A stretch of DNA of 31,241 bases, taken from the IMG/VR virus record IMGVR_UViG_3300010150_000087, positions 1-31,241 of that record; one strand, 5' to 3'. Source of the stretch: a virus. Positions 481 to 31,241 of the stretch are shown here, in pieces; the stretch's first letter is position 1, and each line of letters begins with the position of its first letter. The translations under genes were made by a program, and so were the position numbers. Below the pieces are notes generated by a model. The model had not been told where the DNA came from, searched no databases, and was given only the letters and a program-made list of their open reading frames with translations.

Positions 481-849
481 ATGATACAAATCAAACAATT
501 TACTCAACAAAGAGTTGCCGACTTGAAAAAAAGTATTGTCGGTACTCCAAGCGCTACATATCTTGATAAATTTATGCAAGCAAACCACGGTAGCAATGAC
601 GTGCTACTAGTACAAATGGCTAAACAGTATGGTTACGAATTAGCCCTTGACGATGTCAATAAAGAAATAGATAAAGTTCTAAATGACAAAAAACGTAACC
701 TCTTTAGTTATGAAACTAAGCAACCACTACTTAGTACAGACACTATTGAAGACGTATTCACAATCATTGCAAAGAATCCTAAAAACTTAACACGCAAAGA
801 ATGTGCAATACTCATGTATAACACAATTAAAAATCAGTTTAACAATTAA
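481..849 (+). CDS. Unknown 122-residue protein
   Basis: A soluble, helix-rich protein of 122 residues with no signal peptide, membrane span, cysteine cluster or nuclease motif. It starts at an ATG after an A/T-only leader (taataataat), as is usual in this phage, and lies 7 bp after the preceding gene and 11 bp before the peptidase gene, so all three are probably co-transcribed. One copy of the strand-polar 10-mer (757-766) falls inside it and is read as Phe-Thr-Ile. I do not recognise the family. A role in early takeover of the host would fit the position but is only a guess. Confidence 0.7.
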   Translation: MIQIKQFTQQRVADLKKSIVGTPSATYLDKFMQANHGSNDVLLVQMAKQYGYELALDDVNKEIDKVLNDKKRNLFSYETKQPLLSTDTIEDVFTIIAKNPKNLTRKECAILMYNTIKNQFNN

Positions 850-860
850 ATTCAATCCAC

Positions 861-1994
861 ATGAAAAAAAACGATTTCTTAGCATCAATTATGAGAGTAC
901 AGTCAGCCTCATACAAAACACACAGAATGGCTAAATTCATAACCAAGACACTACAAAAAGACGGACTTGGTTACACCAGAGATAAATATGGTAACATCTA
1001 TGTGACTAAGGGTGATGCAAACTTATACCCAACTATGGTATGCCATATAGATACTGTACATGACATCAATGACAATGTACGTATTGTACGAACAGGCGAT
1101 AAAATGTTTGCTATTGACTCAACAAATTGCCATAGAATTGGTATTGGAGGTGATGATAAAGTTGGTATTTATATTACACTATGTTGCCTACGTAAATTTG
1201 ATAACTTCAAAGCAGTCTTCTTCCTAGACGAAGAGGTTGGATGTGTTGGTTCTTCAAATGCAGACTTCAGCTTCTTTGATGACAGCACTTTAGTATTAGA
1301 ATGTGATAGACGTGGTTATGGTGACTTCGTCACAAATATATCAGGAACTAAACTAAGTGACGATACACTTATAAATGATATACAAAAAATTCTTGACGAT
1401 TATAAATTCGTTACTTGTAATGGAGGTATCACAGATGTAGGTGAAATAGCAGAAAACCATGATATACAAGTTGCGAATATGTCATGCGGTTACTATGAAC
1501 CACATAGCAACAATGAATACATTGTCATATCAGAGGTAGAAAAAGTCAAAAGTATGTGTATGAAGATACTATCAGCAACTCAGCTGAAACAATACACTAT
1601 GGATAAAGACTCACGTGTTACATATAATGCTTATCATGACTATGACTCAGGATATGGGTTTAACTATGGTGTAGGTAACTACAACAGACATGTATATGGA
1701 GCTTGGACTCAACCTAGTGACCATAACGGACAAGGTACAGCATATTACGATGAAGGATATGTTGGTGAAGAAGGATACGTAAAAGTACACCAGAAATGTA
1801 ACGAATGCAGTAACAACAGTATGCTATATGACGAGTATGAAGATGCGTTTTGGTGTCAGAATTGCGGACATTACATATCAGCATACGAGTTGGATGTACT
1901 GACAGAAATTCACGACGACGTACGTGATGAAATAGAAGAAAAACTTGGATATGATCCACTATTTACTAACCCTGAAAATTCACAATCATGCTAG
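861..1994 (+). CDS. M20/M28-like zinc peptidase with C-terminal zinc ribbon
   Basis: This looks like a co-catalytic zinc aminopeptidase or carboxypeptidase. The metal-site pattern can be followed in order: H62-x-D64 (CHIDTVHD), GGDDK with D98/D99, DEE at 123-125 with E124 as the likely general base, D149 (ECDRRG) and H215 (PHSNNEY). In M20 enzymes such as PepT a lid or dimerisation domain of about 110 residues or more lies between the fourth and last ligands. Here only about 65 residues separate D149 and H215, so the catalytic domain is the compact M28-like form. After a Tyr/Gly-rich linker (about 245-305) comes a CxxC-x15-CxxC zinc ribbon at C313, C316, C332 and C335, which is not part of the peptidase fold. 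The stop overlaps the next start by 7 bp. The substrate is unknown; degradation of a host protein or processing of a phage protein are both possible. Confidence 0.8.
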   Translation: MKKNDFLASIMRVQSASYKTHRMAKFITKTLQKDGLGYTRDKYGNIYVTKGDANLYPTMVCHIDTVHDINDNVRIVRTGDKMFAIDSTNCHRIGIGGDDKVGIYITLCCLRKFDNFKAVFFLDEEVGCVGSSNADFSFFDDSTLVLECDRRGYGDFVTNISGTKLSDDTLINDIQKILDDYKFVTCNGGITDVGEIAENHDIQVANMSCGYYEPHSNNEYIVISEVEKVKSMCMKILSATQLKQYTMDKDSRVTYNAYHDYDSGYGFNYGVGNYNRHVYGAWTQPSDHNGQGTAYYDEGYVGEEGYVKVHQKCNECSNNSMLYDEYEDAFWCQNCGHYISAYELDVLTEIHDDVRDEIEEKLGYDPLFTNPENSQSC

Positions 1995-3760
1995 ATATAA
2001 TAATAAAAGACGCAGTACGCAATGTTATCAATGATGATTACATCAAAACATTCAAAACACCAGACGGTACAAGTAATCATCTATTACATATGAAAATACT
2101 AGACGTTTGTGACACTATAGCACAAGGAGTTCATGCTGACAGAATATTAGATATGTATAACTTAACATATAAAATTCAAGAAAGCGATTGTAGTACACAA
2201 TTCGCTAGACGTACAGCACTAAAAATTGTAGGTAAATTACGAACATCCATTTACTTTAAATATTTGACAGCTCATAATACATTTCAAGATAGTACAGGCA
2301 TAATGTACTCAGTTGACTTCAAAATTGATGAGTATAAAGATGTGCTTGACCTAGGAGGTTACAAATTAAAAATATATGACATTGTCAAACTGCAATATAA
2401 TATGTACAATTCCAAACGCAGTAAAAAATATTCAATGATGTCTGAAACACTCAAAAGACGTATTGGTAGAATTGTTGACAGAATGAGACCAAGCAATGAT
2501 AATATATTTGCAAATGACCACGATAAACAGCGTATAAATAAACTTGGACGTACAATAAACTTAATTGATAACACTAACTATCATATAGATACTGTTAGAA
2601 ACTTCACAATCAACAAAGAAGGTAAAATGACTTGCTTGCCAAAAGGTAAACAATGTAGAACAATTGAAAGTGAACAAGGTACTGTATGGGCTAGAGACAG
2701 GCGACAAGAAATTAAATATGGTAAAGGTATACGAGCTATACTTAATCAACCTAATCTACCACCAACTACTATGACTGATATACAAAATATATCACAATTA
2801 CTAAAAGCTGAATATACATTTACAGGCGAAATTAAAATAGTAAAAGGTGAAGATATAAGAACATATTATCACTGCGACGCATATGCAAGAGGTAATACAG
2901 AATCACTTGGCAACTCTTGTATGAGACATGACTCTTGTCAAGACTTCTTTGATATATATGTCGACAACCCCGACAAAGTCAAAATGGTTATAGCTGATAC
3001 AAGTGAGGGTATTATAGGAAGAGCATTACTATGGTATACAGACTGTAAAACATTGATAATGGATAGAATATATGGTAATGAAATCACAATCAACGCATTA
3101 AAACAATGGGCACACAACAATGGATATATGCACAAAAAAGTTCAAAGCTATTCAAACGACACAGAATTTGTGACTAGTGTAGGTGAAATTATTGAAGGTA
3201 ATTATACTATCACACTTGATAGAAATAATGACTATATGCCATATATGGACACATTCAAATATACAGAAGACTTGTACTCTAGAAAACTAGAATTAACTAA
3301 TGACAGTAATTACGACAACTATACACTTGACGCTACAGACGGCGGTGAGGCAGGAGGGACATTATGTGTAAATGGAGATAGGTATCATGAAGATGATGTA
3401 TGTTATATTGAATGCGGCACAGTTGAAGAAGGTTACTATCACAATGACGACACATTTTATTGCGAATGGAGTAATTACGATTATCACAGAGATGATATGG
3501 TTAGAACTATAGACGGAGATTGCGTATTCTATGAGGCTGACGACCTTGTACATATGGAACATTGCGATGAATATGCACATGCAGATGATGTTGTATTCTC
3601 AGACTATATTAGCTCTTGGATATTGTGCAAAGACTCTGTAATGTGTGTAGTCAAAGGAGATATACTTAAATCAGAATCAACAACTATTACTGTAAACGAT
3701 ACTGAATATACAGTACACCAAGACGTAACACTTGACGAACTTGAAGAATTCTTATCATAA
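1988..3760 (+). CDS. 590-residue phage protein with acidic Tyr/His/Cys repeats
   Basis: The start ATG overlaps the end of the peptidase gene by 7 bp and is itself the last base of a TTCACAATCA copy (1979-1988). Residues 1-280 are basic and helical. A central segment (about 290-395) carries GNSCMR near 310, GRALLW and MDRIY near 358; I recall similar segments in unnamed proteins of large phages but know no function. Residues 461-550 hold a degenerate repeat with Y-x-x-D-D steps (YHEDD, YYHNDD, YDYHRDD, FYEADD, YAHADD) interspersed with cysteines (YCEW, MEHCDEY). These look like short metal-binding or treble-clef-like units, which is inference. The Leu codon choice leans more to CTN than in the primase gene. 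Its co-operonic position with a zinc-ribbon peptidase suggests a shared early function. Gene call firm, function unknown. Confidence 0.75.
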   Translation: MLDIIIKDAVRNVINDDYIKTFKTPDGTSNHLLHMKILDVCDTIAQGVHADRILDMYNLTYKIQESDCSTQFARRTALKIVGKLRTSIYFKYLTAHNTFQDSTGIMYSVDFKIDEYKDVLDLGGYKLKIYDIVKLQYNMYNSKRSKKYSMMSETLKRRIGRIVDRMRPSNDNIFANDHDKQRINKLGRTINLIDNTNYHIDTVRNFTINKEGKMTCLPKGKQCRTIESEQGTVWARDRRQEIKYGKGIRAILNQPNLPPTTMTDIQNISQLLKAEYTFTGEIKIVKGEDIRTYYHCDAYARGNTESLGNSCMRHDSCQDFFDIYVDNPDKVKMVIADTSEGIIGRALLWYTDCKTLIMDRIYGNEITINALKQWAHNNGYMHKKVQSYSNDTEFVTSVGEIIEGNYTITLDRNNDYMPYMDTFKYTEDLYSRKLELTNDSNYDNYTLDATDGGEAGGTLCVNGDRYHEDDVCYIECGTVEEGYYHNDDTFYCEWSNYDYHRDDMVRTIDGDCVFYEADDLVHMEHCDEYAHADDVVFSDYISSWILCKDSVMCVVKGDILKSESTTITVNDTEYTVHQDVTLDELEEFLS

Positions 3761-4539: not shown

Positions 4540-4565
4540 AAGGCGGCTAAAAAAAAAGTCGCCTT
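4540..4565 (+). terminator. Hairpin after the small-gene block, possible terminator
   Basis: AAGGCGGCT (4540-4548) pairs with AGTCGCCTT (4557-4565) around a loop of eight A residues, with one G-U pair. The core GGCGGC...GTCGCC is the same as in the terminator at 3871-3902, but here no T run follows on the + strand, so it may be a weak terminator, an RNA 3'-end stabiliser or a protein-binding hairpin. Read on the - strand it is followed by a T-rich stretch. Confidence 0.5.
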
Positions 4566-4611: not shown

Positions 4612-4621
4612 TTCACAATCA
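4612..4621 (+). repeat. Strand-polar dispersed 10-mer TTCACAATCA (intergenic copy)
   Basis: This is the only intergenic copy of a dispersed motif and it lies five bases before the iteron array. Exact copies on the + strand start at 757, 1979, 2603, 4612, 8085, 10171, 13832, 16157, 21143 and 31213. The 9-base core TCACAATCA with another first base occurs in the 10-mers starting at 3083, 5988, 7265, 12756 and 25119. I found no reverse-complement copy on the + strand. Copies fall in all three sense frames of the + genes and antisense within the - genes, so coding does not explain them. Confidence 0.85.
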
Positions 4622-4626
4622 CCGAG

Positions 4627-4677
4627 GATGCGACTGAGATGCGACTGAGATGCGACTGAAAAACAGGATGCGACTGA
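4627..4677 (+). repeat. 11-bp iteron array (GATGCGACTGA, four perfect copies)
   Basis: Three perfect tandem copies of GATGCGACTGA (4627-4637, 4638-4648, 4649-4659) are followed by a seven-base spacer and a fourth perfect copy (4667-4677), then a fragment ATGCG (4679-4683). The period of 11 bp is about one helical turn, so a protein bound to each copy would sit on one face of the DNA. The array is the GC-richest part of a 243-bp noncoding stretch at the head of the recombination and replication genes. Both an origin and an operator are possible. A short ACAT microsatellite lies at about 4577-4590. Confidence 0.85.
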
Positions 4678-4727
4678 AATGCGTTAAAAACCCTCATGTA
4701 GTGCAGTTTTGTGCTCAAAACACTAGG

Positions 4728-4754
4728 TTATGAACAAAAAAAGAACTATATTTG
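4728..4754 (+). promoter_or_regulatory. Possible Bacteroidetes-type promoter for the recombination block
   Basis: TATATTTG at 4747-4754 matches the flavobacterial/Bacteroidetes -7 element TAnnTTTG and lies 22 bases before the ATG at 4777. A TTA at 4728-4730 stands roughly where the -33 TTG is expected, which is a weak match. The octamer also occurs by chance inside genes (2503-2510 and 21165-21172), so only its position after the iterons and before a gene block makes this call. Confidence 0.35.
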
Positions 4755-4776: not shown

Positions 4777-5028
4777 ATGAAAACAAAAGACTATTTACAC
4801 TCAGATTTACTAAGCTGCAAAAAAAACGATTTAGTGTTTGAAAAAACCTATTCCTTAATCGATAAGCTTGCAAAAAAACAAACTGAAATGATGTGTGCTG
4901 CATTTAATTTAGATCAAGACAACCATATAAAGGAGCTTGAGAAAATGAACGCGACACACTACTCAGATGACATTATTGAGCTAGTAAACTACACAATTGC
5001 AAACTTTAATAAATCTAAAAAATTATAA
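4777..5028 (+). CDS. Unknown 83-residue protein
   Basis: First gene after the iteron region, with a typical taattATG start. It is a soluble, helical, Lys/Asp/Asn-rich protein of 83 residues with a likely long amphipathic helix in the middle (YSLIDKLAKKQTEMMCAAF). There is no signal peptide or recognisable catalytic motif. The next gene follows after two bases, so they are co-transcribed and probably translationally coupled. Its position as first gene of the recombination/replication transcript would fit an early regulator or iteron-binding protein, but nothing in the sequence proves it. Confidence 0.65.
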   Translation: MKTKDYLHSDLLSCKKNDLVFEKTYSLIDKLAKKQTEMMCAAFNLDQDNHIKELEKMNATHYSDDIIELVNYTIANFNKSKKL

Positions 5029-5470: not shown

Positions 5471-5875
5471 ATGAAAACAGAAAGATTAAAAGAACTGTAC
5501 TTAAAGTACGGTTTATCGAAAGACGATGTCTTTAAACATCAACACTACATTATTATCACAAGGTCTGGGATTGATAAAATCCAAGCAAGTGAAAAAATCA
5601 AAATTACTTATGATGTAATCAACTGCGAAACAAATTTTTGCGTTGTAAAAGCTAACGCACTTGTTGGCGAAAACAGTATTCAAACATTTGGCTCGGCTTT
5701 AAAAGGATCCAATCACAGAGACGGGAATTGTAATACCTGGTATGTTATGGAAATGGCAGAGAAGAGAGCTATGAGCAGAGCTGTGCTAAAATTAACAGGG
5801 TTCTACGAGCTAGGGGTCTTCGGTGAAGATGAAAGTGAGGACTTTAAAAGAAAGGATGCGTCATGGAAAAAGTAA
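5471..5875 (+). CDS. Candidate single-strand annealing/recombination protein
   Basis: Residues 25-120 show a pattern I associate with phage recombination-type proteins: TRSGIDKI and alternating strands, a conserved-looking FGSA turn (73-76), and then a helix MEMAEKRAMSRAVLKLTG (93-110). The latter is reminiscent of the 'MAEKRA..RA.LKL' helix of ERF/Rad52-like annealing proteins. It ends GEDESEDF plus a basic tail, and at 134 residues it is short for such a protein. The downstream gene, overlapping by 13 bp, is an exonuclease, and an SSB-like protein follows; annealing protein + exonuclease + SSB is a common phage recombination set. Family assignment is from context and pattern memory, not certain; a small replication accessory protein is the alternative. 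Confidence 0.45.
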   Translation: MKTERLKELYLKYGLSKDDVFKHQHYIIITRSGIDKIQASEKIKITYDVINCETNFCVVKANALVGENSIQTFGSALKGSNHRDGNCNTWYVMEMAEKRAMSRAVLKLTGFYELGVFGEDESEDFKRKDASWKK

Positions 5876-6594
5876 TCAAAAAACTACAAGACGATAAGCA
5901 TTACTATGGTGAGTTTGGTCAGAAGTATTTATCAAACTCAGACATAGATGCTCTTATCAACAATCCGTATAGTTTTCACCAACCTAAATCACAATCATTG
6001 CCGTTTCTCTACGGGTCGGCATTTCATGAAATGGTTATGTTTGGTAAAAGCGACAACATGGAATCTATTGAGTCATCAACTCGCACAACTAAAATCTATA
6101 AACAAGCAATTTTAGATAGTGGTAAAGAAATAATTTTACTACAAAAAGAGGCTGACGAAATACTAAATATGGTTGATATTTTTAAGTCAAATGACAACAT
6201 CAAGGAGGTGCTAAACACTAAAAATATACAGTTTGAAGTACCCTCTGTAGGTTTTATGACAGAAAACGATATCCCATGGAAAGGTAAGGCTGATATCATT
6301 ACAGATGATTTTGTTTATGATATTAAGACATGTTCAAAGCTTAAAAGTTTTCGCAACAGCTCTAGATCCTATAATTACGATAGTCAAGCGTTTATATACT
6401 CTAAACTATTTCAGAAACCTATGAAGTTTTTAGTAATAGAAAAAGGTACTGGACTTATTGGAATATTTGAAACATCAGACGAAGCGTATGATAACGGATA
6501 TTACAAAGTTGAAGCAGCGGAAACTCAATTTCTAAAGTATTTTGTAAACAAAGAGGCAGACCTCAAAAACTTTACTAAGTATGGCGAAATATAA
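5863..6594 (+). CDS. PD-(D/E)XK exonuclease (RecE/DUF3799-like)
   Basis: A 243-residue nuclease of the RecB/RecE-like PD-(D/E)XK superfamily. Visible motifs: the N-terminal YLSNSDIDALINNPY, typical of DUF3799-type phage exonucleases; GSAFHEM with H55; E125; WKGKAD with D144; YDIKT with D153-x-K155; and DSQAFIY with Q175. The set H...D...DxK...Q is the complete active site of a processive 5'-3' dsDNA exonuclease. The start is supported by an AAGGA just upstream and overlaps the preceding gene by 13 bp, so the two products are made together. It would resect DNA ends for annealing or repair, or degrade host DNA. The family call is firm, the exact role inferred. Confidence 0.85.
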   Translation: MEKVIKKLQDDKHYYGEFGQKYLSNSDIDALINNPYSFHQPKSQSLPFLYGSAFHEMVMFGKSDNMESIESSTRTTKIYKQAILDSGKEIILLQKEADEILNMVDIFKSNDNIKEVLNTKNIQFEVPSVGFMTENDIPWKGKADIITDDFVYDIKTCSKLKSFRNSSRSYNYDSQAFIYSKLFQKPMKFLVIEKGTGLIGIFETSDEAYDNGYYKVEAAETQFLKYFVNKEADLKNFTKYGEI

Positions 6595-7050: not shown

Positions 7051-7641
7051 ATGAAAACAAAAACAGACAAATATCAAGTGCTTGATATAATCTCAGAGGT
7101 TATAGAAAAAAAACACAAAGTAAATAATCAATATATATTTCAAGACACAAGAAAAAGAGAGGTGTGTGATTTAAGAAAAGTGTTTTTTTATTTAGCAACT
7201 AGATTCACAAGGCTTCCTTTACAGGATATAGGAAACTACTCTAAGTATAGGGGTCGTGGCAACGCTCACAATCATGCGACTATAATCTACAGCTCAAAAT
7301 TAGTTAAAGATTGGATTTCAATCGACAAGGAATATAGAGAGTATATAGGTGAAATAGAAAACGAAGTAAAATACTTTGTCGATTATGAGCAATACAGATA
7401 CGATGAATCAAACAAGTACAAAAAAAAGATTGCAAAGAAAATTTACCATGAAGAAGATATTGTGTTTTTAACTAAATACAATGAAATTACAGAAAAACTA
7501 TACGAAAATAGAGAGTTTATTGATAACTTGGCAGTTACTATCAATGAGCTTATAACAAATAAAAAAGAAAACAATGAAAGGGTATATCAAGCTTCACAGG
7601 AGGATTCTCGATTGGGAATGGTACAAGGACTCCAATACTAA
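7051..7641 (+). CDS. DnaA domain-IV-like DNA-binding protein without ATPase
   Basis: Residues 33-90 follow the DnaA DNA-binding domain (Bac_DnaA_C): TRKREVCDLRKVFFYLA, then LPLQDIGNYS, and NAHNHATIIYS, which stands where DnaA has the 'RDHSTVLHA' signature that reads the DnaA box. DnaA's AAA+ domain is absent, as only 33 residues precede this region. The C-terminal half (about 95-180) is charged and helical, possibly for self-association or loader contact. Its last 68 bp overlap the next gene in another frame, and the next two genes are an organiser-like protein and the primase-helicase. The likely role is origin recognition at phage DNA, perhaps at the iterons; a transcription regulator is the alternative. 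The domain call is good, the role inferred. Confidence 0.7.
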   Translation: MKTKTDKYQVLDIISEVIEKKHKVNNQYIFQDTRKREVCDLRKVFFYLATRFTRLPLQDIGNYSKYRGRGNAHNHATIIYSSKLVKDWISIDKEYREYIGEIENEVKYFVDYEQYRYDESNKYKKKIAKKIYHEEDIVFLTKYNEITEKLYENREFIDNLAVTINELITNKKENNERVYQASQEDSRLGMVQGLQY

Positions 7642-8320
7642 AATTATATTCATACACTTACTATTAAATGCCTGCTACGACGATTGTAGGTTTATGGGCA
7701 GAGCTGTGGCTAAAGGAGAATACATTACGTCTCTTAATAGAATATCTGTAGATCTAAACATACCAATCAGAAAGGTAAGAACGGCTATAAAAAGGCTTAA
7801 ACAAACAGGAGAAATAGACACGCAAACGACAAATAAATATACTAAGGTAACTATCTGTAACTATGATAGTTATCAAGTTGAGGAGCGTAAAACTAAAAAG
7901 AAAACGACACGCAAACGACAAACAAGTGTCAAGCAAGTGACAGAGTTAAATAAGAATATAATAAAACAAGAAAATAAAAATAACATATTTTTAAGTGATT
8001 GTCTTAATTCTGCAACTTGGGCTGAAGTTGTTTGTATGCAAAATTCAATAAGCAAAGAATCTTTAGGTAAAGCATTAGATACATTTCACAATCATCTAAT
8101 CATGACTGACGAAATAAAAAATTCAATAAAAGACTATAAATCTCATTTTGTAAATTGGCTTAAATACAACAAAGTTGATGCTATAAAAAACTCTGGAAGC
8201 TACAAATGGAAATGGAAAGGTCAAAGCACCAAGAGTGGAACTAAAACTGAATTAGAGAAAGATAAGAAATTTTACGATCAACCAGGATTTGACTTTAAAA
8301 TAATACAAAATGGACATTAA
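7574..8320 (+). CDS. Replisome-organiser / DnaD-like replication initiation protein
   Basis: The start MKGYIKLHRRILDWEW is the typical beginning of phage replication initiation proteins of this class, so this ATG is preferred even though it overlaps the DnaA-like gene by 68 bp. Residues 1-105 read as a winged-helix domain (NACYDDCRFMG, TSLNRISVDLNIPIRKVRTA, then TKVTICNYDSY). A basic linker (KKKTTRKRQT, about 112-121) follows, then a C-terminal region (about 150-215) with DFxNWL-like features seen in DnaD-like proteins (KSHFVNWLKYNKV). It would bind origin DNA and recruit the helicase. The stop overlaps the helicase start by 11 bp, consistent with a stoichiometric complex. Family call good; no biochemical evidence. 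Confidence 0.75.
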   Translation: MKGYIKLHRRILDWEWYKDSNTKIIFIHLLLNACYDDCRFMGRAVAKGEYITSLNRISVDLNIPIRKVRTAIKRLKQTGEIDTQTTNKYTKVTICNYDSYQVEERKTKKKTTRKRQTSVKQVTELNKNIIKQENKNNIFLSDCLNSATWAEVVCMQNSISKESLGKALDTFHNHLIMTDEIKNSIKDYKSHFVNWLKYNKVDAIKNSGSYKWKWKGQSTKSGTKTELEKDKKFYDQPGFDFKIIQNGH

Positions 8321-10067
8321 CGGATTTAAAATAAAAGACTACAACGTTTATAAGCTAGATACAAAATCTAAAAAATCAACATGTCCTGTGTGTTCTTCAA
8401 GTAGAAAGAAAAAGACTCAAAAATGTTTGATGTTAGATTGGAATAGAGGTCTTGGAACTTGTCAGCATTGTGGAGAGGTTTTACAGCTACATACTTACGA
8501 AAAAGAAGCTGAATACACTTATGAAGCACCTGTGCTGCGAAAAGTAAATAAGCCTGGAGACAATATGATTGAATGGTTTAAAAGCAGAGGAATTACAAGC
8601 CAAACTTTAGATAAGTTAGATGTGACCGCAGGACTAGAATATATGCCTCAAGTTAGTAAAGAGGTGAATGTAATCATGTTTAAATATAACTATAAGGGAA
8701 AGTTAGTGAATGTAAAATACAGAGATGCACAGAAAAACTTTAAGTTGTATAAAGGAGCAAAGAAGATTTGCTATAACATGGATTCAATTATAGGTAAAGA
8801 CGAATGTGTTATTGTTGAAGGTGAAATAGATTGCCTTTCATTTGTAGAAGCTGGTGTTGAAAATGTTGTGAGTGTTCCAAATGGATTTACAGCAACAGGA
8901 CAAATAAACTTAGACTACCTCAACGATTTGTATTATCACTTTGAAGATAAGAAAAAAATATACGTTTGTGTTGATGCTGACGAAGCTGGTGAGAACGGGA
9001 AGAAAGAACTTATAAGAAGGTTTGGTTCAGAAAAGGTTTATTTATGCGATTTAAAGGATTGTAAAGACGCAAATGAGTACTTAATCAAGTACGGCTCTGA
9101 AAGTCTAAGAAATGTGATAAAAACAGCAATACCATGCCCAATAGAAAATGTATTAAGAGTTTCTGATATGGAAGCTGACTTAGATGATTTTTATAAAGGT
9201 GGTGTTAAAAATGGGTTTAAAATTGGTTTAGATGGATTTGATTCTATATTCTCTACATACACAAAACAATTTGTTGTAGTAACTGGATTTCCAAGTAGTG
9301 GTAAGTCTGACTTCGTGGACCAAATGACTATAGGATACAATATGATGTACGGATGGAAAACAGCTTATGCTTCAACAGAAAACTACCCGCAATACCTACA
9401 CGTTGACAAATTAATAAGAAAGCTGTATGGAAATACTCCAGAGTATAAAGACACTAAAACACAATCATGGAGAAGATGCGTGAACCATATTAATAAAAAC
9501 TTTTGCTTTATTAACTATGAAGACGGATTTGATTTAGATAAGGTGTTAAAAAAAGGAGAAGAGCTTGTAAGAAGAGTTGGTATAAGGTGCCTTGTTATTG
9601 ACCCATACAATAAGATAAGAGACAAATCTAATATGAATCTAAGTATTACTGATTATACAAATGCTTATTTGAATAAAATAGATAATTTTTGTAAAAAAAA
9701 TGACGTTGTATGTATTCTTGTAGCTCACCCAACAAAACCTCAAAACGATAAAGGTAAATTGATTGAGCCAACATTTTACGACGTGAAAGGTGGAGGTGAA
9801 TTTTACGATATGAGTCCTCATGGAATATTAGTACATCGTGATTTTGAGGCAGGTACAGTAAAGATTAAGGTGTTAAAAGTAAAGTTTGCAAATCTTGGAG
9901 AGAATCAAGCTCACGTAGATTACTGTTGGAATGTGAACAACGGAAGATACACAGATTTAAGGGGTGGTTCACCTGTTTGGGACAATACAAATTGGTTGGC
10001 AGAAAAAAGCAACCCTTATGAATTAACAAAAAGTTTAGATGTTGAATTTAAAAAACTAGAATTATGA
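8310..10067 (+). CDS. Primase-helicase (T7 gp4-like)
   Basis: This is a two-part replication enzyme. A zinc-binding domain has CPVC (C25, C28) and CQHC (C51, C54). A TOPRIM primase core has VEGEID (E170) and VDADEAG (D222, D224). A DnaB/RecA-type helicase begins near 300 with Walker A GFPSSGKS (326-333), a Walker B-like LVIDPY about 100 residues on and a sensor-like LVAHPTKP. At 585 residues it is about the length of T7 gp4 (566). It unwinds DNA and makes RNA primers at the fork. The stop overlaps the next ATG by four bases (ATGA). The enzyme depends on a DNA polymerase that is not in the window. Confidence 0.95.
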   Translation: MDINGFKIKDYNVYKLDTKSKKSTCPVCSSSRKKKTQKCLMLDWNRGLGTCQHCGEVLQLHTYEKEAEYTYEAPVLRKVNKPGDNMIEWFKSRGITSQTLDKLDVTAGLEYMPQVSKEVNVIMFKYNYKGKLVNVKYRDAQKNFKLYKGAKKICYNMDSIIGKDECVIVEGEIDCLSFVEAGVENVVSVPNGFTATGQINLDYLNDLYYHFEDKKKIYVCVDADEAGENGKKELIRRFGSEKVYLCDLKDCKDANEYLIKYGSESLRNVIKTAIPCPIENVLRVSDMEADLDDFYKGGVKNGFKIGLDGFDSIFSTYTKQFVVVTGFPSSGKSDFVDQMTIGYNMMYGWKTAYASTENYPQYLHVDKLIRKLYGNTPEYKDTKTQSWRRCVNHINKNFCFINYEDGFDLDKVLKKGEELVRRVGIRCLVIDPYNKIRDKSNMNLSITDYTNAYLNKIDNFCKKNDVVCILVAHPTKPQNDKGKLIEPTFYDVKGGGEFYDMSPHGILVHRDFEAGTVKIKVLKVKFANLGENQAHVDYCWNVNNGRYTDLRGGSPVWDNTNWLAEKSNPYELTKSLDVEFKKLEL

Positions 10068-10411
10068 AAACAATAGTATTAGCAATTATGGTTACGGCAA
10101 CAATTTACCATGCCGATCCAAAACAATGTAATGCAGATTACTTAACAACTGCATCATTAAAAAAAATCGATTCACAATCACCTGGATCTCACAGATGGAT
10201 AGCTGTCAGTAGGGATTTAGAAAAACATGGTTTTATCTTTGGAGCAAAAGTGTGTGTGGAAAATGCAGGAGATATGAATGGTATATGGACTGTAGAAGAT
10301 AGAATGAATAAAAGATGGAAGAAAAGAATTGATTTTCTTGTTGACTACGACTTAAAAGGTGGTAAATGGGACAACGTAAAAATATCTTTGATACAAGATG
10401 AAGGATATTAA
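10064..10411 (+). CDS. Small 3D/RlpA-like double-psi beta-barrel protein
   Basis: A 115-residue protein with the layout of a 3D-domain/RlpA-like barrel: TATIYHADPKQCNADYLTTAS at the start, IAVSRDL, FGAKVCVE, GDMNGIWTVEDRM and then KRIDFLVD. The aspartates D79 and D90 lie where 3D domains keep theirs. Barrels of this kind occur in lytic transglycosylases (MltA) and in cell-wall-binding phage proteins. The N-terminus MKTIVLAIMVTA could act as a short export signal, but it also reads as the first strand, so export is uncertain. It is sandwiched between replication and nucleotide genes with overlaps on both sides, an unusual place for a lysis gene. A peptidoglycan role is inferred only. Confidence 0.65.
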   Translation: MKTIVLAIMVTATIYHADPKQCNADYLTTASLKKIDSQSPGSHRWIAVSRDLEKHGFIFGAKVCVENAGDMNGIWTVEDRMNKRWKKRIDFLVDYDLKGGKWDNVKISLIQDEGY

Positions 10412-11872: not shown

Positions 11873-12969
11873 GTAAAAAAAGAGTTAGACTAAACAAAGA
11901 AGAAGCAATAGCTTTAGGTTTAGAAGTAAAAGAAACAGAACAAGGTAGAAATACATTTAGAGCCTACATAGACATTGAGTCTCAACAAAAACTAAATCAA
12001 GTAAGACATCAAGGTGTTTACGAATACTGCAAGGAAAGAGGAATAGACTTCAATAGTGTTAGCCAGTACTGGGATAAAACTAAAGAATATTCCGTACAGG
12101 TTAGACCAACAATAGTTTCATACAACGATATATCTAGACAGATAATAGATGAAATGAAACTATACTCCCCTAGTTATCCTAAAGTTAAAAGATCTAAACT
12201 GAAAGAACCTCATCTTTTAGTGATTGACCCAGCTGATGTTCACATTGGAAAATTATCAACCTCTTTTGAGACAGGAGAAGATTATGATTCAGAGATAGCA
12301 ATACAAAGAGTTAGGGATGGTGTTCAAGGGATATTAGACAAGTCATCTGGATTTCAAATAGACAAATTCTTATTAATAATAGGTAACGACATTCTTCACA
12401 TAGACACTCCAAAAAGACAAACAACCTCTGGAACACCTCAAGATACTGATGGTATGTGGTATGAAAGTTTTTTAAAAGCAAAAGCTATCTATGTAGAGAT
12501 AATAGAAAAACTTGTAGCAATCGCTGATGTTCATGTAACATACAACCCAAGTAATCATGACTACACAAATGGATTCTTTTTAGCCGATGTGATCACTACC
12601 TGGTTTAGAAATTGTAAGCATGTAACATTTGATTCAAGTATAAGCCATAGAAAATATTTCCAATATGGTAAGAACTTAATAGGAACAACACATGGTGATG
12701 GAGCTAAAAACAATGATCTTCCTTTACTTATGGCTGTAGAGGCCAAAGAGAGCTGGTCACAATCACGTCACCGATACGTTTATACACATCATGTACATCA
12801 TAAAAATGCAAAAGATTATGCAGGTGTAACTGTAGAAAGTTTAAGAAGTCCTTCAGGAACAGATAGTTGGCACCACAGAAATGGATACCAACACAACCCA
12901 AAAGCAATAGAAGGGTTTTTACATCACCCAGAGTTTGGGCAGATAGCAAGATTAACACATATATTTTAA
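11869..12969 (+). CDS. Calcineurin-like metallophosphoesterase
   Basis: After a 115-residue N-terminal region (a basic, helix-turn-helix-like stretch around 40-70: KLNQVRHQGVYEYCKERGI) the metallophosphatase signature appears in order: D123-x-H125 (ADVHIG), G172-N-D174 (IGNDILH), N229-H230-D231 (PSNHD), H275 (THGD) and H307-H308-V-H310. These are the ligands for two metals in the Mre11/calcineurin/phosphodiesterase fold. The substrate could be DNA, RNA or a cyclic nucleotide. The DNA-binding-looking N-terminus and the place among replication genes favour a nucleic-acid role, but phages also use such enzymes against nucleotide second messengers. Complete active site, so probably active. Confidence 0.85.
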   Translation: MSKKRVRLNKEEAIALGLEVKETEQGRNTFRAYIDIESQQKLNQVRHQGVYEYCKERGIDFNSVSQYWDKTKEYSVQVRPTIVSYNDISRQIIDEMKLYSPSYPKVKRSKLKEPHLLVIDPADVHIGKLSTSFETGEDYDSEIAIQRVRDGVQGILDKSSGFQIDKFLLIIGNDILHIDTPKRQTTSGTPQDTDGMWYESFLKAKAIYVEIIEKLVAIADVHVTYNPSNHDYTNGFFLADVITTWFRNCKHVTFDSSISHRKYFQYGKNLIGTTHGDGAKNNDLPLLMAVEAKESWSQSRHRYVYTHHVHHKNAKDYAGVTVESLRSPSGTDSWHHRNGYQHNPKAIEGFLHHPEFGQIARLTHIF

Positions 12970-13248: not shown

Positions 13249-13701
13249 ATGGACTATAAGAAGAAGCTTTTTATAAATAAGGAATTAAGTGACGAAGATC
13301 TTGATTATGCAAGAGAAGCTTTAAGTAAAATGGATTTAATTGACTACTTAAAAGATTCTTTTGTATACGTTACTGTAGATGAAGAAGGTGGAGTTCAAAT
13401 TGTGAGCGCTAAAGATGAGTATGTTTATTTAGTTTCTAAAGAATATTATATTGATAATAAAATGTCAATGGAGTATTTAAAAAGAAGATATGAAATAAAC
13501 AACAAACTAAAAGAAACTCTTTACTGGATGGGATTAAACAATCTAAAAAAATTTATTCCTGTTATTTCAGATAATGGTATAGAAAAAAAATATTCAGAAA
13601 AAGCTGTTTATGCAGAAAACGCTCCAGAAGCAGTTAATATAATGGATAATATGGACGAACATGATTACATGTATTTAGAGGACGTAGATGAAGAGATATA
13701 A
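13249..13701 (+). CDS. Unknown acidic 150-residue protein
   Basis: I prefer the ATG at 13249 (MDYKKKLFINKEL...) to the TTG two codons upstream. The protein is acidic and soluble, with strands around FVYVTVDEEGGVQIV (about 38-52) and EYVYLVSKEYYI, a helix-rich middle, and a very acidic, Met-rich end (NIMDNMDEHDYMYLEDVDEE). It sits between a terminator and a nuclease gene, overlapping the latter by 14 bp. No family is recognised. The acidic character could suit a DNA mimic or an inhibitor of a host DNA-binding protein, but that is speculation. Confidence 0.65.
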   Translation: MDYKKKLFINKELSDEDLDYAREALSKMDLIDYLKDSFVYVTVDEEGGVQIVSAKDEYVYLVSKEYYIDNKMSMEYLKRRYEINNKLKETLYWMGLNNLKKFIPVISDNGIEKKYSEKAVYAENAPEAVNIMDNMDEHDYMYLEDVDEEI

Positions 13702-14140
13702 AAAAAACAAGCAAATAACTAGAGCAACTAAAACAGTTATTGATGGAATACAATTTCAATCAAGACTAGAGTCTCACATGTATTTATTATTAAAAGCAAA
13801 TGAAATAAGTAACGGATACGAAACACATCAATTCACAATCATTGACGGATTTCTCAGCGAACATTCTTCTTACGAAAAAACACCTAAAAAGAAATTTTTA
13901 CACGATAGAGGTTATAAGAAAATATTACCCATAAGATATACTCCTGATTTTATTGATACTCAAGTACCTCCAAGATATATTATAGAGTGTAAAGGAAACC
14001 CAAATGAAAGATTTCCTATGGTTTGGAAGTTATTTAAAAGACACCTTAACTTAAAAGGCTGGTCTCCAGATTTATTTGTACCTAGAAACCAGAAAGATTG
14101 TCAAGAGGTAATAAATATAATAAAAGAAAAATATTATTAA
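13688..14140 (+). CDS. PD-(D/E)XK nuclease, DUF1064-like
   Basis: A 150-residue phage nuclease. TKTVIDGIQFQSRLESHMY (E29), RYTPDF (D87) and IIECKG (E100-x-K102) are the pattern of DUF1064 and related Holliday-junction/endonuclease proteins: helix glutamate, then D and ExK of a PD-(D/E)XK site. Length is normal for the family and the active site is complete. A basic N-terminus (KRYKKNKQ) should help bind DNA. It could resolve replication or recombination branches before packaging. It is the last gene of the + arm, and its stop overlaps the stop of the giant - strand gene. Confidence 0.8.
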   Translation: MKRYKKNKQITRATKTVIDGIQFQSRLESHMYLLLKANEISNGYETHQFTIIDGFLSEHSSYEKTPKKKFLHDRGYKKILPIRYTPDFIDTQVPPRYIIECKGNPNERFPMVWKLFKRHLNLKGWSPDLFVPRNQKDCQEVINIIKEKYY

Positions 14141-17100
14141 TCTTTAGGCGTCGCTGCGTTTTTCCTTATATTCTCAACTACATCTAAAGCGTGTTTTTTT
14201 GCAGAACGATCCATGTTTTTCTGTTCTTTTTCCCACCATTCACCTATATTATTCATATCAACAGGTAGATTCTGTTCTTTTGTCCTGTAGTCTAAATAAG
14301 CTTTAAAGAAGGCATTATTAACACCTTTTATCGAAGGCGAAGACCTTGTAAAATTCTCTTCTATCTGTCTTTCTAATTTATTAAGAAGATTATTTATGTC
14401 TCCTTTTGGTACAGGAAGAAGTAAGTTTGCAGTCCTCGCATATAAAAGGTAATCAACAATATTGTCTAATTTTTCTTGCATAGCAGGAGTATCTGCCGCA
14501 AGATATTCTATTATCCCTGTGCTTGAAACTCCACTACCTGGTTTTTTAAATACACGATCTTGGTACAGAGTATAAGCTTTTGCGAATTTATCATACTGCT
14601 CAAAACCAACACTATACATACCTAAATTTTCTTTTAAAAGAAGAATTTTTTCGTCAGTACTTGTTCCCATTTTATCTAAATCTGAAGATATGTACTCTGG
14701 GATAACCTCTTCTCCTAGTAACTCATTCATTACAGCAAACCCTACATCATACAATGGATCTGGAGCAGCAAAAGGTAAGGTTGTTTTAAACATATCTGTT
14801 GCCATTTGCAATAAAACACTATAGTTTGGAGATACTTTATATTTATTCTCATATTCCATAGTTGTTTTATACAGCTCTAAAAGAGTGTAGTCTAAACCAG
14901 TTGCTGTTTCATCAAAAGAAGCTTTAAAACCCTCTAAGGTTTCTCTTTGACCTCTAGGTATTTTAGATAATTGTTCCTCGTATTCACGATCTTCTATCGG
15001 TAATAAAGCATCACCAATAAGTTTTGTGATTCCACCATATCTATCAATATCATCTTCATCTACTCCAAATTGCATCATTGCAGCTCCAACAAAACCTATA
15101 GTTGTAACCCTTCCTGTGGATAGTTTTATTCCGTTGAATACAGCAACTTCATTCATTATACCCCTCATTCTTTTGTTAGCTTCTTGTCTTTGCAACTCTG
15201 GTAGACTCTTGTCTTGAGACCTGGCGTATTGATTAGCAAAATTTGCTTTAGCATTTAACATAAATTTACCCCAAGGAAATACTGTTCTTTGAGCAAATTT
15301 AGTTCCTATTTTAGCGTTTATGGCATAAAATTCAGCTTCAGAAGTTGGTTCTGTTTGCCTCATAGTTTCAGCTATTCTCCTATCTGCATATTCAATAGCT
15401 TCCGTGTTTGGGTTTTCGTTTTCTCTCTTCCACCAAGCTGATATGTCTTTAGGAATAATAGCGCCTTGATCTATTCTGTTTTGTAAGTAATGAGCTTCAA
15501 AAGCAGAATTTGCTGCAGCTCTATCCGCATTGGCTAAGAAAAACTCAAGAGAAAGCTCTGAGCTTTTAGTTATCACATCTAAAACCCCGTCTACTGTATA
15601 TTGAAGACCTCTCATTTCATCAGAAAAAAGGTCAGCATTCATATTGAATTTGCTAACATAATAATCAAGCGGAAGCTTTGTGTTTTCTCCTATAGCAAAT
15701 TCAGCTTTTAAAGCATTACGCAATCCAGTTCTTGATTGACTGTAAATATTAGAAAGTTGACCTCCTTTTATAAGGTTGTTTGCCCATTGAGCATATTTAG
15801 CTGTTTTTTGACCATTTCCAACGCCTGCCATAGAATACAAAAACCTTGCGTTAGATAATTGCAAATGATTTCTGGCTCTTGAATCATTTAACATAGGCAT
15901 AGTACCAGTAGTTGCACTATAAAACTGCGAAGCTGGTTGATTAAATCTTGAAAGACCTATTGCAGATAAAGTAGAATAAAAAGCTTGCCCTACTTTTTTA
16001 CTCGTGCTTAGTAGGTCTGGACTACCAAAATCCATTTGTACATTTTGACCTTGAGAAATCATATAATTAAAAATCTCCATTCTAGATCCAAAATATTTTT
16101 TTACGCTCTCGTAATCTTTACCTTCCTTTGTAAATAAATCTTTAAAGCCATCAGAATTCACAATCATATCTATGGTCTCAAAGTCTTGTCTAGAATTCAT
16201 GTCAATAAAAGAACCTTGCATTTGCTGGTAAGCTCTTTCAAAATAATTACCAAAAGATAGTCTAGAATTTTCTAGTGTATCATCTTCTGTAACATCTTGA
16301 AGAATTCCTGCAAAAGTTCCAAAATCACTTCCTTTTTTGTTTCTTATTCTATTAGCGTCACTTGACTCTTGACCGTTATCAGCTGTTCTAAAACTAGGGA
16401 CATAGGTTCCGTCTACAAAAAAAGTATCTTTTCCTTCATAGTCTTGTTTTCTTTGTTTAGCTTCTTGATGAGGAAATCTTTCTGAAAGCCTGTTAAGAGC
16501 ATTTACTATAGGTTGTTTGGCGTTCCTAGACACGTCTTTATAAGACAAAGCACTATCCAAACCTAAACTTTCTAGTGTAGCTTTTAATTGCTTGTATTTC
16601 ACCTCAGTTATATTGTCAGGATTGTCTTCGTATTCTTGTTTTCTAAGTTCTAACTCTTTAAATAAACTATTTTTTTGTCTTTGAAATTCTGTATCTAATC
16701 CTGTAGACTCATCTATTTCACCAGATTTTCTTCTTAAATGAGCTAAAACCTGCATCTCATAAGAAAGTTCTAAATTTCTTAAATCAGTAGAAATTTTATT
16801 TTTAGGATTAGCTTTGTTATATGCTTTAATTTCGTTTTTAAATAGAGAAGCATCTTGATTGACAAACTCTGCAGAAGTGTTCATTGCGCTTGCTACATTT
16901 CTGTTTGCAGCAGAAACTAAATCAATAAATGGCTTTCCTTTAGAGGTGTCTCTAAAAATAGCACCCAAAAATATATCTGAAGTCATTAAGTTTTTAGGCA
17001 TTACTTTCGTTCTACCCATCATCATTTTTCTTCCAAAATTATTTACATAAGGAAATATGTCTTGAATAAGACTAAAAGGATTTATGTTTTTCTTGCTAAG

Positions 17101-20100: not shown

Positions 20101-21153
20101 CTGCTTAATTGAATTTATAAAAAGGGTTGAATTAAAACCTTTAGAAGTTTTAAATATGTTGGAGTTTTCTTCACCAGTTAAAGCTTTTGATAAGAATCTC
20201 AAATCCTCTTCTTCTGGTTGATTCATTTGAAAAGAATATCGCTTCATAGCATCGTTAACACCAAAAGGATTTTCATCTATGTAATTAGATATAACTCCAA
20301 CTAAGTTTGATTTACCTAGAGCTAAATCCATTACAAATTTATTGTGCTTTACATTGACTCTTTGGTTTACTTTTTCTTCTCCTTTAAAAGTTTTATTTAT
20401 AAGAGCTCCTAGTTGACCCACACCAATTCCTTGTTCAGACATTAGTTTTATTTCAAACTGAGTTCCGTCTGGTCTCGTTATATTAAGAGCGTTAGAGCCT
20501 ATATTGCTCTCTGATGCAGAATATCCGAAATCTCCTAGAATCTCATTAAACTTCACCTCAGCATCCGCTTCTTCCATTTTTAAAAAATCCCTAGGGAGCT
20601 GCTTTAGAATTGGAATTACGCTAGTTCTTTCGTCTAATTTTTCAGTGTAATATTCGTCTACCTTTGGTTGAGGTACTTGAGTTATATTATTTGGGTCTTG
20701 AGGCACCAATGTGGTAGGTGAACTTTCCAATATGGATGGAGAACCCGTACCTGTAGGTGTTGTCGCAACTGCATTTTGTGGAATTGATTGCTGTAAAGTG
20801 TGGTTTTGATTTTTTTTTTCAACCTCTTTGACATCAGTCCATGATAAACTTAGTTTTTTATAACCATTATCATCTAGTTTTTTTTGCCCAGTTTTCTTGT
20901 GTGCAAAGTCAATCCAATATCTTAGATTTGTAGCAGAAGATATGCTTTTTAATTTGTTTTTATTATATCTCTTACCAGCATTGTCGTATAAAGAAACTAA
21001 ATATGAATAAACTTTATCTTTATTTACAGCAGGTTTTGGATCCTTTGGGTCTTGTGGATCTTTAACCTGAACATTGTTTTCTGGAACCATAGCATTACCT
21101 TCAATGGTTTGCTTTGGGTCTTCTGATATTGGTGTATCGTTTTTCACAATCAT
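14137..21153 (-). CDS. Giant internal/ejection protein (T7 gp16 position)
   Basis: A 2338-residue protein, the last gene of the late operon, and the third of three genes standing where T7 has gp14, gp15 and gp16, the proteins ejected into the host to form a channel. The N-terminus is Pro/Asp-rich and probably disordered (about 1-170). The bulk is helical and coiled-coil-like with long Glu/Lys runs (about 870-1320). Hydrophobic Gly/Ala-rich stretches occur near 640-690 (VPYIASFMANPGLGLGVTFG) and near 2018 (GFVGAAMMQFG), suitable for membrane insertion. I see no lytic transglycosylase signature and no catalytic RNA-polymerase motif (DxDxD in context), so I do not call it a virion RNA polymerase. 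It overlaps the preceding gene by one base (TAATG). Virion role by context; mechanism inferred. Confidence 0.65.
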   Translation of the reverse strand: MIVKNDTPISEDPKQTIEGNAMVPENNVQVKDPQDPKDPKPAVNKDKVYSYLVSLYDNAGKRYNKNKLKSISSATNLRYWIDFAHKKTGQKKLDDNGYKKLSLSWTDVKEVEKKNQNHTLQQSIPQNAVATTPTGTGSPSILESSPTTLVPQDPNNITQVPQPKVDEYYTEKLDERTSVIPILKQLPRDFLKMEEADAEVKFNEILGDFGYSASESNIGSNALNITRPDGTQFEIKLMSEQGIGVGQLGALINKTFKGEEKVNQRVNVKHNKFVMDLALGKSNLVGVISNYIDENPFGVNDAMKRYSFQMNQPEEEDLRFLSKALTGEENSNIFKTSKGFNSTLFINSIKQLKRNLTPAYNDIIKKEKDYKDSVISSTLASTKTGNLRLPENPDDSLTEEELKSNIKIKSTLGRIDDILKKYEQSKRNTSKILGKSLKRSDKLAQIDLSNEEQISDLISSGLDMLDMPLPSLLINDKQASFQDVYDLISRPKELGYIQRGEIRVSIDDSVDVGVFNDLVKKLKVTQERNTAFLDEGNPRLNSFFRGLADVPQGIYAHTLDILSNFGVALQDTLEMFGVSPEVAEYVIFNQTGVYLPGAKGSPGMSTPRASMPTKKEVEEAMSLLPEYNGSISDSRGVGEFLSYGMQGFTSSVPYIASFMANPGLGLGVTFGSTYGASIEEAREARKSAREAESAGIVLTEKQKDLLEMSSARARGYALAKAGGETLITAAFTAKYFKQLRLANGMKNVSKTQESSQQLASAFADQNRKGLIAAFSRYTGLSPKVIANEVPEEQFIAYTGYLTDVLFGFKEYDNKTAMKLAADAGLNSLFSSSGMSMASKAMSKNVNNIADEVINRKITLDGEMQAVVNKIESDARVGNLEDSGELSDSPKFKIAIEMQRKADDAILSFEKRKKELVSQMTPSHKATFLQGIADLEALQGQINDSETEPELINSAQAKIEDMKFKLKRILASYPSELSYYFLTKNQQSALTEKALEQLSKEKEGETFSLTSEDSEVIKRAAEIYKKEVLENMRDTPDDIGVSGYFNEHIYYDDLEIDVDENYDPTDFNLAQEIILLNKPDAVETLLEGDSPGVQDLEKAREKELQSLNDLKIQDLKTKASEKFGSLEESKSKLLEEYKDNPGVISKEESDVIAFMINNLYDVNPGSNPYVDIKEWSDSEISELNLKNNKLIEAIKYNFPNLTKKQLTDILGSVNERIFLEHKGALLAESEGSSGLPNNMAELQAEKINEKYDKLIAESQEKKSDEQIRQEEEDSFRQNANIYRIKQLNLSQNFYEGLDANGKTIIKKFFTDIKNGFRPKFARVETLLDAQETINDLKVLNTTKIDILENPKLLSKKNINPFSLIQDIFPYVNNFGRKMMMGRTKVMPKNLMTSDIFLGAIFRDTSKGKPFIDLVSAANRNVASAMNTSAEFVNQDASLFKNEIKAYNKANPKNKISTDLRNLELSYEMQVLAHLRRKSGEIDESTGLDTEFQRQKNSLFKELELRKQEYEDNPDNITEVKYKQLKATLESLGLDSALSYKDVSRNAKQPIVNALNRLSERFPHQEAKQRKQDYEGKDTFFVDGTYVPSFRTADNGQESSDANRIRNKKGSDFGTFAGILQDVTEDDTLENSRLSFGNYFERAYQQMQGSFIDMNSRQDFETIDMIVNSDGFKDLFTKEGKDYESVKKYFGSRMEIFNYMISQGQNVQMDFGSPDLLSTSKKVGQAFYSTLSAIGLSRFNQPASQFYSATTGTMPMLNDSRARNHLQLSNARFLYSMAGVGNGQKTAKYAQWANNLIKGGQLSNIYSQSRTGLRNALKAEFAIGENTKLPLDYYVSKFNMNADLFSDEMRGLQYTVDGVLDVITKSSELSLEFFLANADRAAANSAFEAHYLQNRIDQGAIIPKDISAWWKRENENPNTEAIEYADRRIAETMRQTEPTSEAEFYAINAKIGTKFAQRTVFPWGKFMLNAKANFANQYARSQDKSLPELQRQEANKRMRGIMNEVAVFNGIKLSTGRVTTIGFVGAAMMQFGVDEDDIDRYGGITKLIGDALLPIEDREYEEQLSKIPRGQRETLEGFKASFDETATGLDYTLLELYKTTMEYENKYKVSPNYSVLLQMATDMFKTTLPFAAPDPLYDVGFAVMNELLGEEVIPEYISSDLDKMGTSTDEKILLLKENLGMYSVGFEQYDKFAKAYTLYQDRVFKKPGSGVSSTGIIEYLAADTPAMQEKLDNIVDYLLYARTANLLLPVPKGDINNLLNKLERQIEENFTRSSPSIKGVNNAFFKAYLDYRTKEQNLPVDMNNIGEWWEKEQKNMDRSAKKHALDVVENIRKNAATPKD

Positions 21154-30869: not shown

Positions 30870-31241
30870 TTATGAATTTTGTTTTTGATATTCTAACTGC
30901 TCTTGTTGGCTAGTTACTTGTACAACATCGGCCTCTCGTATACTCAATCCAGAATACTTGCATATTTTTATAACTAAATCAGTTTCATCTTCTTCGGATA
31001 TTTCAAAATCCACAGAACTGTCTGAATTATATACAGGGTCGGAGTTAATAGTATTATATCCCCAGTGAGGATCTAAAGGTTTTCTTATGTAGTTAGCAAT
31101 AACATTTACTGAATCGTACCCTGTTATATGTATACTTACAGGTCTTACTATCATCTTATCTCCCTCTCTTTTAAATATAGGATAAGTAACGCTAGGTGCA
31201 GACAGATTACTATTCACAATCATGTCAAATCTATGCGTCGG
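30870..31241 (-). CDS. Connector/neck structural protein, 5' end cut by the window
   Basis: The - strand frame stays open from the ATG at 31223 through the right edge (PTHRFD before the Met), so this is the C-terminal part of a longer protein. The segment NYIRKPLDPHWGYNT (about 44-58 counted from that Met), followed by a short strand and then ISEEDETDLVIKICKYSGLSI, resembles the end of structural proteins encoded just before the ring protein in crAss-like phages. It ends with a Gln-rich coiled tail (QQEQLEYQKQNS). The ATG at 31223 is inside the reverse of a TTCACAATCA copy and should not be taken as the start. Confidence 0.65.
   Translation of the reverse strand, partial: PTHRFDMIVNSNLSAPSVTYPIFKREGDKMIVRPVSIHITGYDSVNVIANYIRKPLDPHWGYNTINSDPVYNSDSSVDFEISEEDETDLVIKICKYSGLSIREADVVQVTSQQEQLEYQKQNS

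Follow-up and report, generated by a model that had tools for sequence, protein, structure and literature searches.

Nicks at specific sites have been recognised in phage DNA since the 1960s and have no known function. Iteron origins, of which the lambda O type is an example, typically possess helically phased repeats, although phasing is not strictly required.

In the literature searched, reports of site-specific nicks are confined to T5-like, phiKMV-like and LUZ24-like phages. Pseudomonas putida phage tf, for example, contains 14 nicks, all in one strand and within TACT/RTGMC, which are sealed by ligase and, at the sites quantified, affected over 90% of molecules (PMC3517423). In Rembedalsseter, 13 one-strand coverage drops fall at WACTRTGAC, for which 60 related phages are enriched; the available part of that report assigns the nicks no function and mentions packaging, expression, recombination and defence as proposals (PMC11780129).

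The DNA analysed here, a stretch of 31,241 nt termed the window, covers 31 kb of a viral genome that is longer, and the 41.5-kb contig of a near relative runs past its right end. Early genes are located on the + strand and structural genes on the - strand. Like tf and its LUZ24-like relatives such as Rembedalsseter (TACT^RTGMC or WACTRTGAC), this phage has a motif of 9-10 bp in about 13-14 copies on one strand, with the interruption, here predicted, at a fixed position; the copies are mostly within coding sequence and are concentrated in one part of the genome (PMC3517423, PMC11780129). It differs from tf and Rembedalsseter in that the motif is TTCACA^ATCA, the lineage is unrelated, and the nick is predicted from assembly ends rather than mapped directly. 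Furthermore, one of its sites is tied to a conserved iteron array, a tie that the available parts of both reports do not mention (PMC3517423, PMC11780129). The site-specific nicks of one strand, here predicted, also recall the localized single-strand interruptions of T5 and phiKMV-like phages, although the consensus sequences of T5 (R^GCGCRGG) and phiKMV (CGACxxxxxCCTA^CTCCGG), as quoted in the available part of PMC3517423, differ from TTCACA^ATCA, and the T5 genes sciA and sciB have no recognised counterpart in this phage.

With iteron origins of the lambda O type and of the RepA_N type, such as that of V. cholerae PLE (PMC7145576), the locus shares direct repeats that all point the same way, next to AT-rich DNA, and nearby genes for a DnaD-like organiser or loader and a helicase. 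It is unlike them in having a repeat core of only about 5-6 bp, a variable and unphased spacing, and a nick motif at its border; RepA_N iterons, moreover, are mostly semi-palindromic around a poly-A tract, unlike the repeats found here (PMC7145576).

Strand-polar motif and predicted nick sites

The 10-mer TTCACAATCA occurs 10 times on the + strand of the window and not once on the - strand. Its 9-mer core TCACAATCA (15 copies on +, 0 on -) and the 8-mer CACAATCA (17 and 0) are the commonest words of their lengths in the window. When one mismatch is allowed, TTCACAATCA has 16 sites, against a mean of 4.8 and a maximum of at most 10 in 100 shuffles. In 140 related contigs, oriented alike and amounting to 1.5 Mb, all 398 copies of TCACAATCA lie on the + strand, whereas 96 control contigs from unrelated hits (1.2 Mb) contain 12 and 4 copies on their two strands. 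In the related contigs, variants of the 10-mer with a single mismatch are, for most positions, likewise strongly biased to one strand or missing. The density of the motif is about 1 per 3.8 kb, and 15 further records of 13-67 kb possess 3-19 copies of TCACAATCA each. The sites are distributed unevenly in the window, 11 in the first 14 kb, which hold the early genes, and 4 in the next 17 kb (Table 1). When the literature was searched for the motif sequence, the matches listed were all chance occurrences in unrelated papers.

Some members of the same phage group (L030-L032, L181-L186, L187-L192, L195, L056 and L073) have 0 or 1 copies of the motif. These relatives may use another nick motif or none, and a search for strand-polar k-mers in them found no clear replacement motif.

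The ends of assembled contigs were compared with the positions of the motif; for partially fetched contigs, the end flags were assigned manually according to the ranges of the contigs. Among 117 true left ends, 21 begin exactly at the ATCA of TTCACA^ATCA (0.8 expected, P about 1e-23). Apart from one or two, these 21 starts are homologues of an intact motif in other contigs; they are spread over about ten sites of the genome, inside unrelated genes, and starts elsewhere within the motif were not observed. An ATCA start was found at 0 of 192 locus ends of the 96 unrelated contigs, some of these ends not being true contig ends. At the right, 11 of 104 ends stop 4-30 nt beyond the cut (0.75 expected for the last 40 nt, P 3e-10) and none stops exactly at it; when the sequence is extended from homologues, the right ends are spread over 7-49 nt beyond the cut. 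After end repair of sheared DNA, a nick of the + strand would give exact 5' ends, however the opposite strand breaks, and 3' ends that are filled in or trimmed as far as the break in that strand. Since the left ends are exact while the right ends overshoot, a site-specific nick of the + strand at TTCACA^ATCA is very probable, as judged from assembly ends, and the presence of about 10-15 predicted nick sites per genome, all on one strand, is well supported.

Among the genes covered by family searches, neither an HNH protein nor any other clear nickase was identified. A gene at 13688-14140 for a DUF1064 or Holliday-junction-resolvase-like protein is common to phi38:1, Panino and elemoA, and its product is a possible candidate for the nickase or a resolvase. 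Tracing the nickase through the gene content common to phi38:1 and Panino was abandoned, as it yields only DUF1064, portal, terminase and other structural genes, most of which are also present in the motif-less elemoA.

Table 1. Features of the window and predicted nick sites
Feature	Position	Strand	Evidence or remark
TTCACAATCA, predicted nick site	757..766	+	
TTCACAATCA, predicted nick site	1979..1988	+	
TTCACAATCA, predicted nick site	2603..2612	+	
ATCACAATCA, predicted nick site	3083..3092	+	
Terminator-like hairpin AAGGCGGCT / AGTCGCCTT, 8-nt loop, after 68-aa gene	4540..4565	+	Inverted repeat; weak T tail
TTCACAATCA, predicted single-strand nick site, cut 4617/4618	4612..4621	+	L009 and L012 start at homologue of 4618; motif invariant in 11 aligned relatives
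Putative iteron array, GATGCGACTGA x4 at 4627, 4638, 4649, 4667 and truncated fifth unit	4627..4683	+	
Conserved promoter block: GGTTATGAACA at 4726-4736, -7 element TATATTTG at 4747-4754	4726..4754	+	TTATnAACA and TAnnTT columns invariant in alignment; directly upstream of 83-aa gene
83-aa gene, first of recombination/replication operon	4777..5028	+	
Exonuclease VIII-like PD-(D/E)XK protein	5863..6594	+	PF12684 E 2e-9, PHROG 412 E 7e-23
ATCACAATCA, predicted nick site inside exonuclease gene	5988..5997	+	Relative L070 starts here
DnaA C-terminal helix-turn-helix protein, 196 aa, candidate array binder	7051..7641	+	PF08299 E 1e-8
CTCACAATCA, predicted nick site inside DnaA-like gene	7265..7274	+	Relatives L014 and L066 start here
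DnaD-like helicase loader / replisome organiser, favoured candidate for array binding	7574..8320	+	PHROG 2514 E 5e-23, PF09681 E 4e-5
TTCACAATCA, predicted nick site inside DnaD-like gene	8085..8094	+	Relatives L027, L028 and L050 start here
Primase/helicase	8310..10067	+	PHROG 239 E 4e-81
TTCACAATCA, predicted nick site	10171..10180	+	
GTCACAATCA, predicted nick site	12756..12765	+	
TTCACAATCA, predicted nick site	13832..13841	+	46-kb contig behind L155 starts here
TTCACAATCA, predicted nick site	16157..16166	+	
TTCACAATCA, predicted nick site	21143..21152	+	
ATCACAATCA, predicted nick site	25119..25128	+	Relatives L148 and L149 start here
TTCACAATCA, predicted nick site	31213..31222	+	Window ends 23 nt past motif, as other right ends do

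The repeat array and its conservation

The preliminary description of this DNA had pointed to four perfect 11-bp repeats, GC-rich in an AT-rich gap, that follow five bases after a copy of a polar motif and precede a possible TAnnTTTG promoter. This picture is largely borne out. GATGCGACTGA is matched exactly on the + strand at its four positions, TTCACAATCA lies five bases ahead of the first of them and shows the polarity counted above, and the promoter is present as TATATTTG; the array contains about 48% GC, against 31% in the left flank and 28% in the right. The spacing of one helical turn claimed for the repeats holds for two of the three start-to-start steps (11 and 11 bp) and fails for the third, the fourth copy being located 18 bp after the third. 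Tandem Repeats Finder reports the first three copies as a perfect array. The core common to the repeats is GCGAC, and the truncated fifth unit consists of ATGCG at 4679-4683.

The array is situated after the hairpin and is followed by the AT-rich promoter and the recombination/replication operon. The hairpin was not called in a terminator scan; in several relatives, hairpins with clear T runs were found by eye at its place. By its sequence the predicted promoter at TATATTTG is of the Bacteroidota type, and a sigma-70 scan of the array region gave no signal above chance. Between array and promoter, at 4698-4724, a stretch TGTAGTGCA...CACTAG is kept in close relatives. DnaA boxes (TTWTNCACA) number 3 in the window versus 6 expected by chance, with none near the array, and an oriC-like origin with DnaA boxes was rejected because consensus boxes are not clustered at the array.

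Relatives were gathered via the primase/helicase (about 80) and, in addition, via three other genes, and the conservation of the array was counted in the 28 loci whose sequence ahead of the 83-aa gene was usable. Of these, 27 contain GCGAC repeats, in 2-9 copies on the same strand and with an unphased spacing of 5-28 bp. The array proposed earlier is therefore retained in relatives that keep its neighbours, while its copy number and spacing, also expected to be conserved, vary. The one exception, L044, has only 229 bp upstream. Independent cases are fewer than 28, because near duplicates are included (L037/L038, L061/L063, L024/L033 and L052/L080). In 21 of the 27 array loci the TCACAATCA motif is located 10-25 bp upstream of the first repeat, and in the remaining six (L009, L012, L018, L046, L052 and L207) the contig begins exactly at the array-side cut; one predicted nick site borders the array in essentially every relative.

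The pairing of motif and array persists even in relatives with genes inserted downstream of it. Motif, array and promoter also stay together in L037, L038, L061 and L063, which have extra sequence before the 83-aa gene, and motif and array do so in L047 and L060, at some 330-380 bp from the promoter block or the gene start. In the latter two the array region is found 370-420 bp upstream of the 83-aa gene, and may sit inside a small ORF whose codons keep the GCGAC repeats. A scan for dense clusters, defined as at least 4 GCGAC in 130 bp, identified a single cluster at the array's place in every clustered contig except L060, and none on the - strand of the contigs scanned.

In an alignment of eleven relatives, TCACAATCA, the GCGAC cores, TTATnAACA and the TAnnTT element are invariant, and variation among relatives affects the repeat sequence around the core, the copy number and the spacing. 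As the spacing varies, helical phasing is not a conserved feature. The distance from the end of the array to the promoter block is likewise variable, about 30-60 bp. A scan of viral contigs for the motif followed by two repeats at fixed spacing returned the known close relative only, because the spacing of the array varies.

Candidate binding proteins and the role of the array

The DnaA-like and organiser-like proteins that the preliminary description had placed downstream of the array are both recognised by family matches (Table 1). Pfam and PHROG matches name protein families only, not DNA binding, and a search of solved structures gave no usable match for either candidate. The DnaA-like protein is too short for an AAA+ domain and is poorly conserved, with a mean majority-residue frequency of about 0.55 and an identity down to about 26% in relatives. 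In the organiser, the N-terminal 85 residues are the most conserved, and the mean majority-residue frequency is 0.90 over residues 1-40. Since GCGAC is invariant and the N-terminus of the organiser nearly so, while the DnaA-like protein drifts, the DnaD-like organiser appears more likely than the DnaA-like protein to bind the array.

The repeats are in all likelihood protein-binding iterons, to judge from their conservation; for their being a replication origin, our estimate is evenly balanced. The wider statement, that nick site and iteron array form a composite site serving as origin and/or in the control of the early operon, is one to which we incline slightly. Phage DNA would be nicked site-specifically in one strand at TTCACAATCA, in the form of localized single-strand interruptions, and the left edge of the array, as conservation shows, is always one of these predicted sites. 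A replication protein may then bind the GCGAC repeats, open the AT-rich stretch to the right and load the primase/helicase; the array would be an origin because binding of an initiator there would open the DNA and load that enzyme. More speculatively, the adjoining nick might assist initiation or recombination-dependent replication. An origin would be the most economical explanation of iterons, AT-rich flank and adjacent loader and helicase genes. Of the features of iteron origins, same-orientation direct repeats by AT-rich DNA and nearby organiser and helicase genes are present, and regular helically phased spacing is absent (11, 11 and 18 bp here, 5-28 bp in relatives).

A change of GC skew at the array, which had been suggested as a sign of an origin, is not seen in the window: the only switch is near 14 kb, where the gene strand changes. 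At fourfold-degenerate sites the pooled GC skew is 0.02 to the left and 0.125 to the right of the array, and is inconsistent between relatives. The placement of the array still fits the origin or control region that was first proposed, with no clear support from skew. The alternative of a master operator has become less likely, because repeat number, spacing and promoter distance are variable and there is no overlap between repeats and promoter. TTCACAATCA, treated then as a minor point, is probably the key part of the element.

The array is not needed for nicking, as most predicted nick sites have none. A bolder proposal makes the nick by the array the initiation event itself: the organiser on GCGAC would direct the nick, its 3' end would prime or the break would start replication, and the other nicks would be copies of the origin signal used in recombination-dependent replication. 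We consider this improbable; if true, the enigmatic nicks of phages would gain a function.

The main rival to an origin is a transcriptional role, and the two may coexist. In its pure form, the array would be an operator of the early or recombination operon, bound by a phage or host regulator and without a role in replication, and the nick would be found there owing to the frequency of the motif in the early region. Direct repeats ahead of promoters are common operators, and this array is directly upstream of a conserved promoter of Bacteroidota type and after a terminator-like hairpin. However, the number of copies (2-9), their spacing (5-28 bp) and their distance from the promoter all vary, the repeats are off the promoter core, and sites that overlap a promoter or keep a fixed distance from it, a feature of repressor operators, are absent. 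In L047 and L060, other sequence lies between the array and the promoter of the 83-aa gene, and nearly all relatives have the nick motif at the border of the array, much more often than its density of about 1 per 3.8 kb would give. An operator without a replication role is thus rather unlikely in our judgement.

The remaining explanations concern the contig ends. That six contigs begin exactly at the array-side cut would suit a pac site, at which a terminase subunit binds the repeats and cuts beside them, but contigs also start at about ten other motif sites and right ends overshoot, neither of which would follow from one double-strand cut at pac; the genes searched included no recognisable small terminase gene, and we hold a pac site to be very unlikely. 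The polarity, genome-wide occurrence and frequency of TTCACAATCA recall a Chi-like or other polar recombination or segregation signal, with contig ends as an artefact of assembly. A 10-bp repeat is too short to break de Bruijn assembly, though, and a break of the graph would be expected at the repeat edge and not at one fixed internal position, while the effect observed is one-sided, occurs in many independent metagenomes and is absent from control contigs, which makes this account highly improbable. A double-strand cut at the motif by an enzyme of the phage or its host, whether made in the infected cell or in the sample, would likewise give ATCA starts; it predicts fixed right ends, whereas these are spread 4-50 nt beyond the cut, so that neighbouring contigs overlap the site, and we give it hardly any credence. 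The pac, Chi-like and double-strand-cut explanations were rejected on the pattern of contig ends and on the evidence specific to each, and a one-strand nick beside an iteron array is the reading retained.

Hosts, distant relatives and implications

The structural proteins match virion families and those of cultured Cellulophaga, Flavobacterium and Maribacter phages with 30-38% identity, a resemblance that makes marine Bacteroidota the likely hosts. A primase/helicase with >60% identity was found in no cultured phage. A scan of a genome collection for the host gave one hit, the MAG contig L283 labelled Maricaulis, in which the motif is counted 11:0; the label is probably a binning error rather than an indication of the host.

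CACTATCA, a one-base variant of CACAATCA, is counted 24:2 in Maribacter phage Panino (L262/L274) and 15:1 in Cellulophaga phage phi38:1 (L265/L273), and many or most of the copies in phi38:1 are located just upstream of early genes. Callevirus phi38:1 and Panino are cultured distant relatives; as they carry a polar variant, the motif system may be old and widespread in the group. Another polar word, AACGACACAA (8:0), was observed in ctfjg026 (L264/L286), which has related structural proteins.

These results add a large group of phages, probably of Bacteroidota and with a motif of its own, to those predicted to be nicked, and indicate that contig ends alone offer a way of finding such phages. 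The predicted nick that, in each genome, adjoins a conserved array where the replication genes begin would provide a genetic handle, and with phi38:1 and Panino, cultured phages in which the motif differs by one base, the idea can already be tested. The question of why phage genomes are nicked, half a century old, would thereby be linked to a likely site of replication control.
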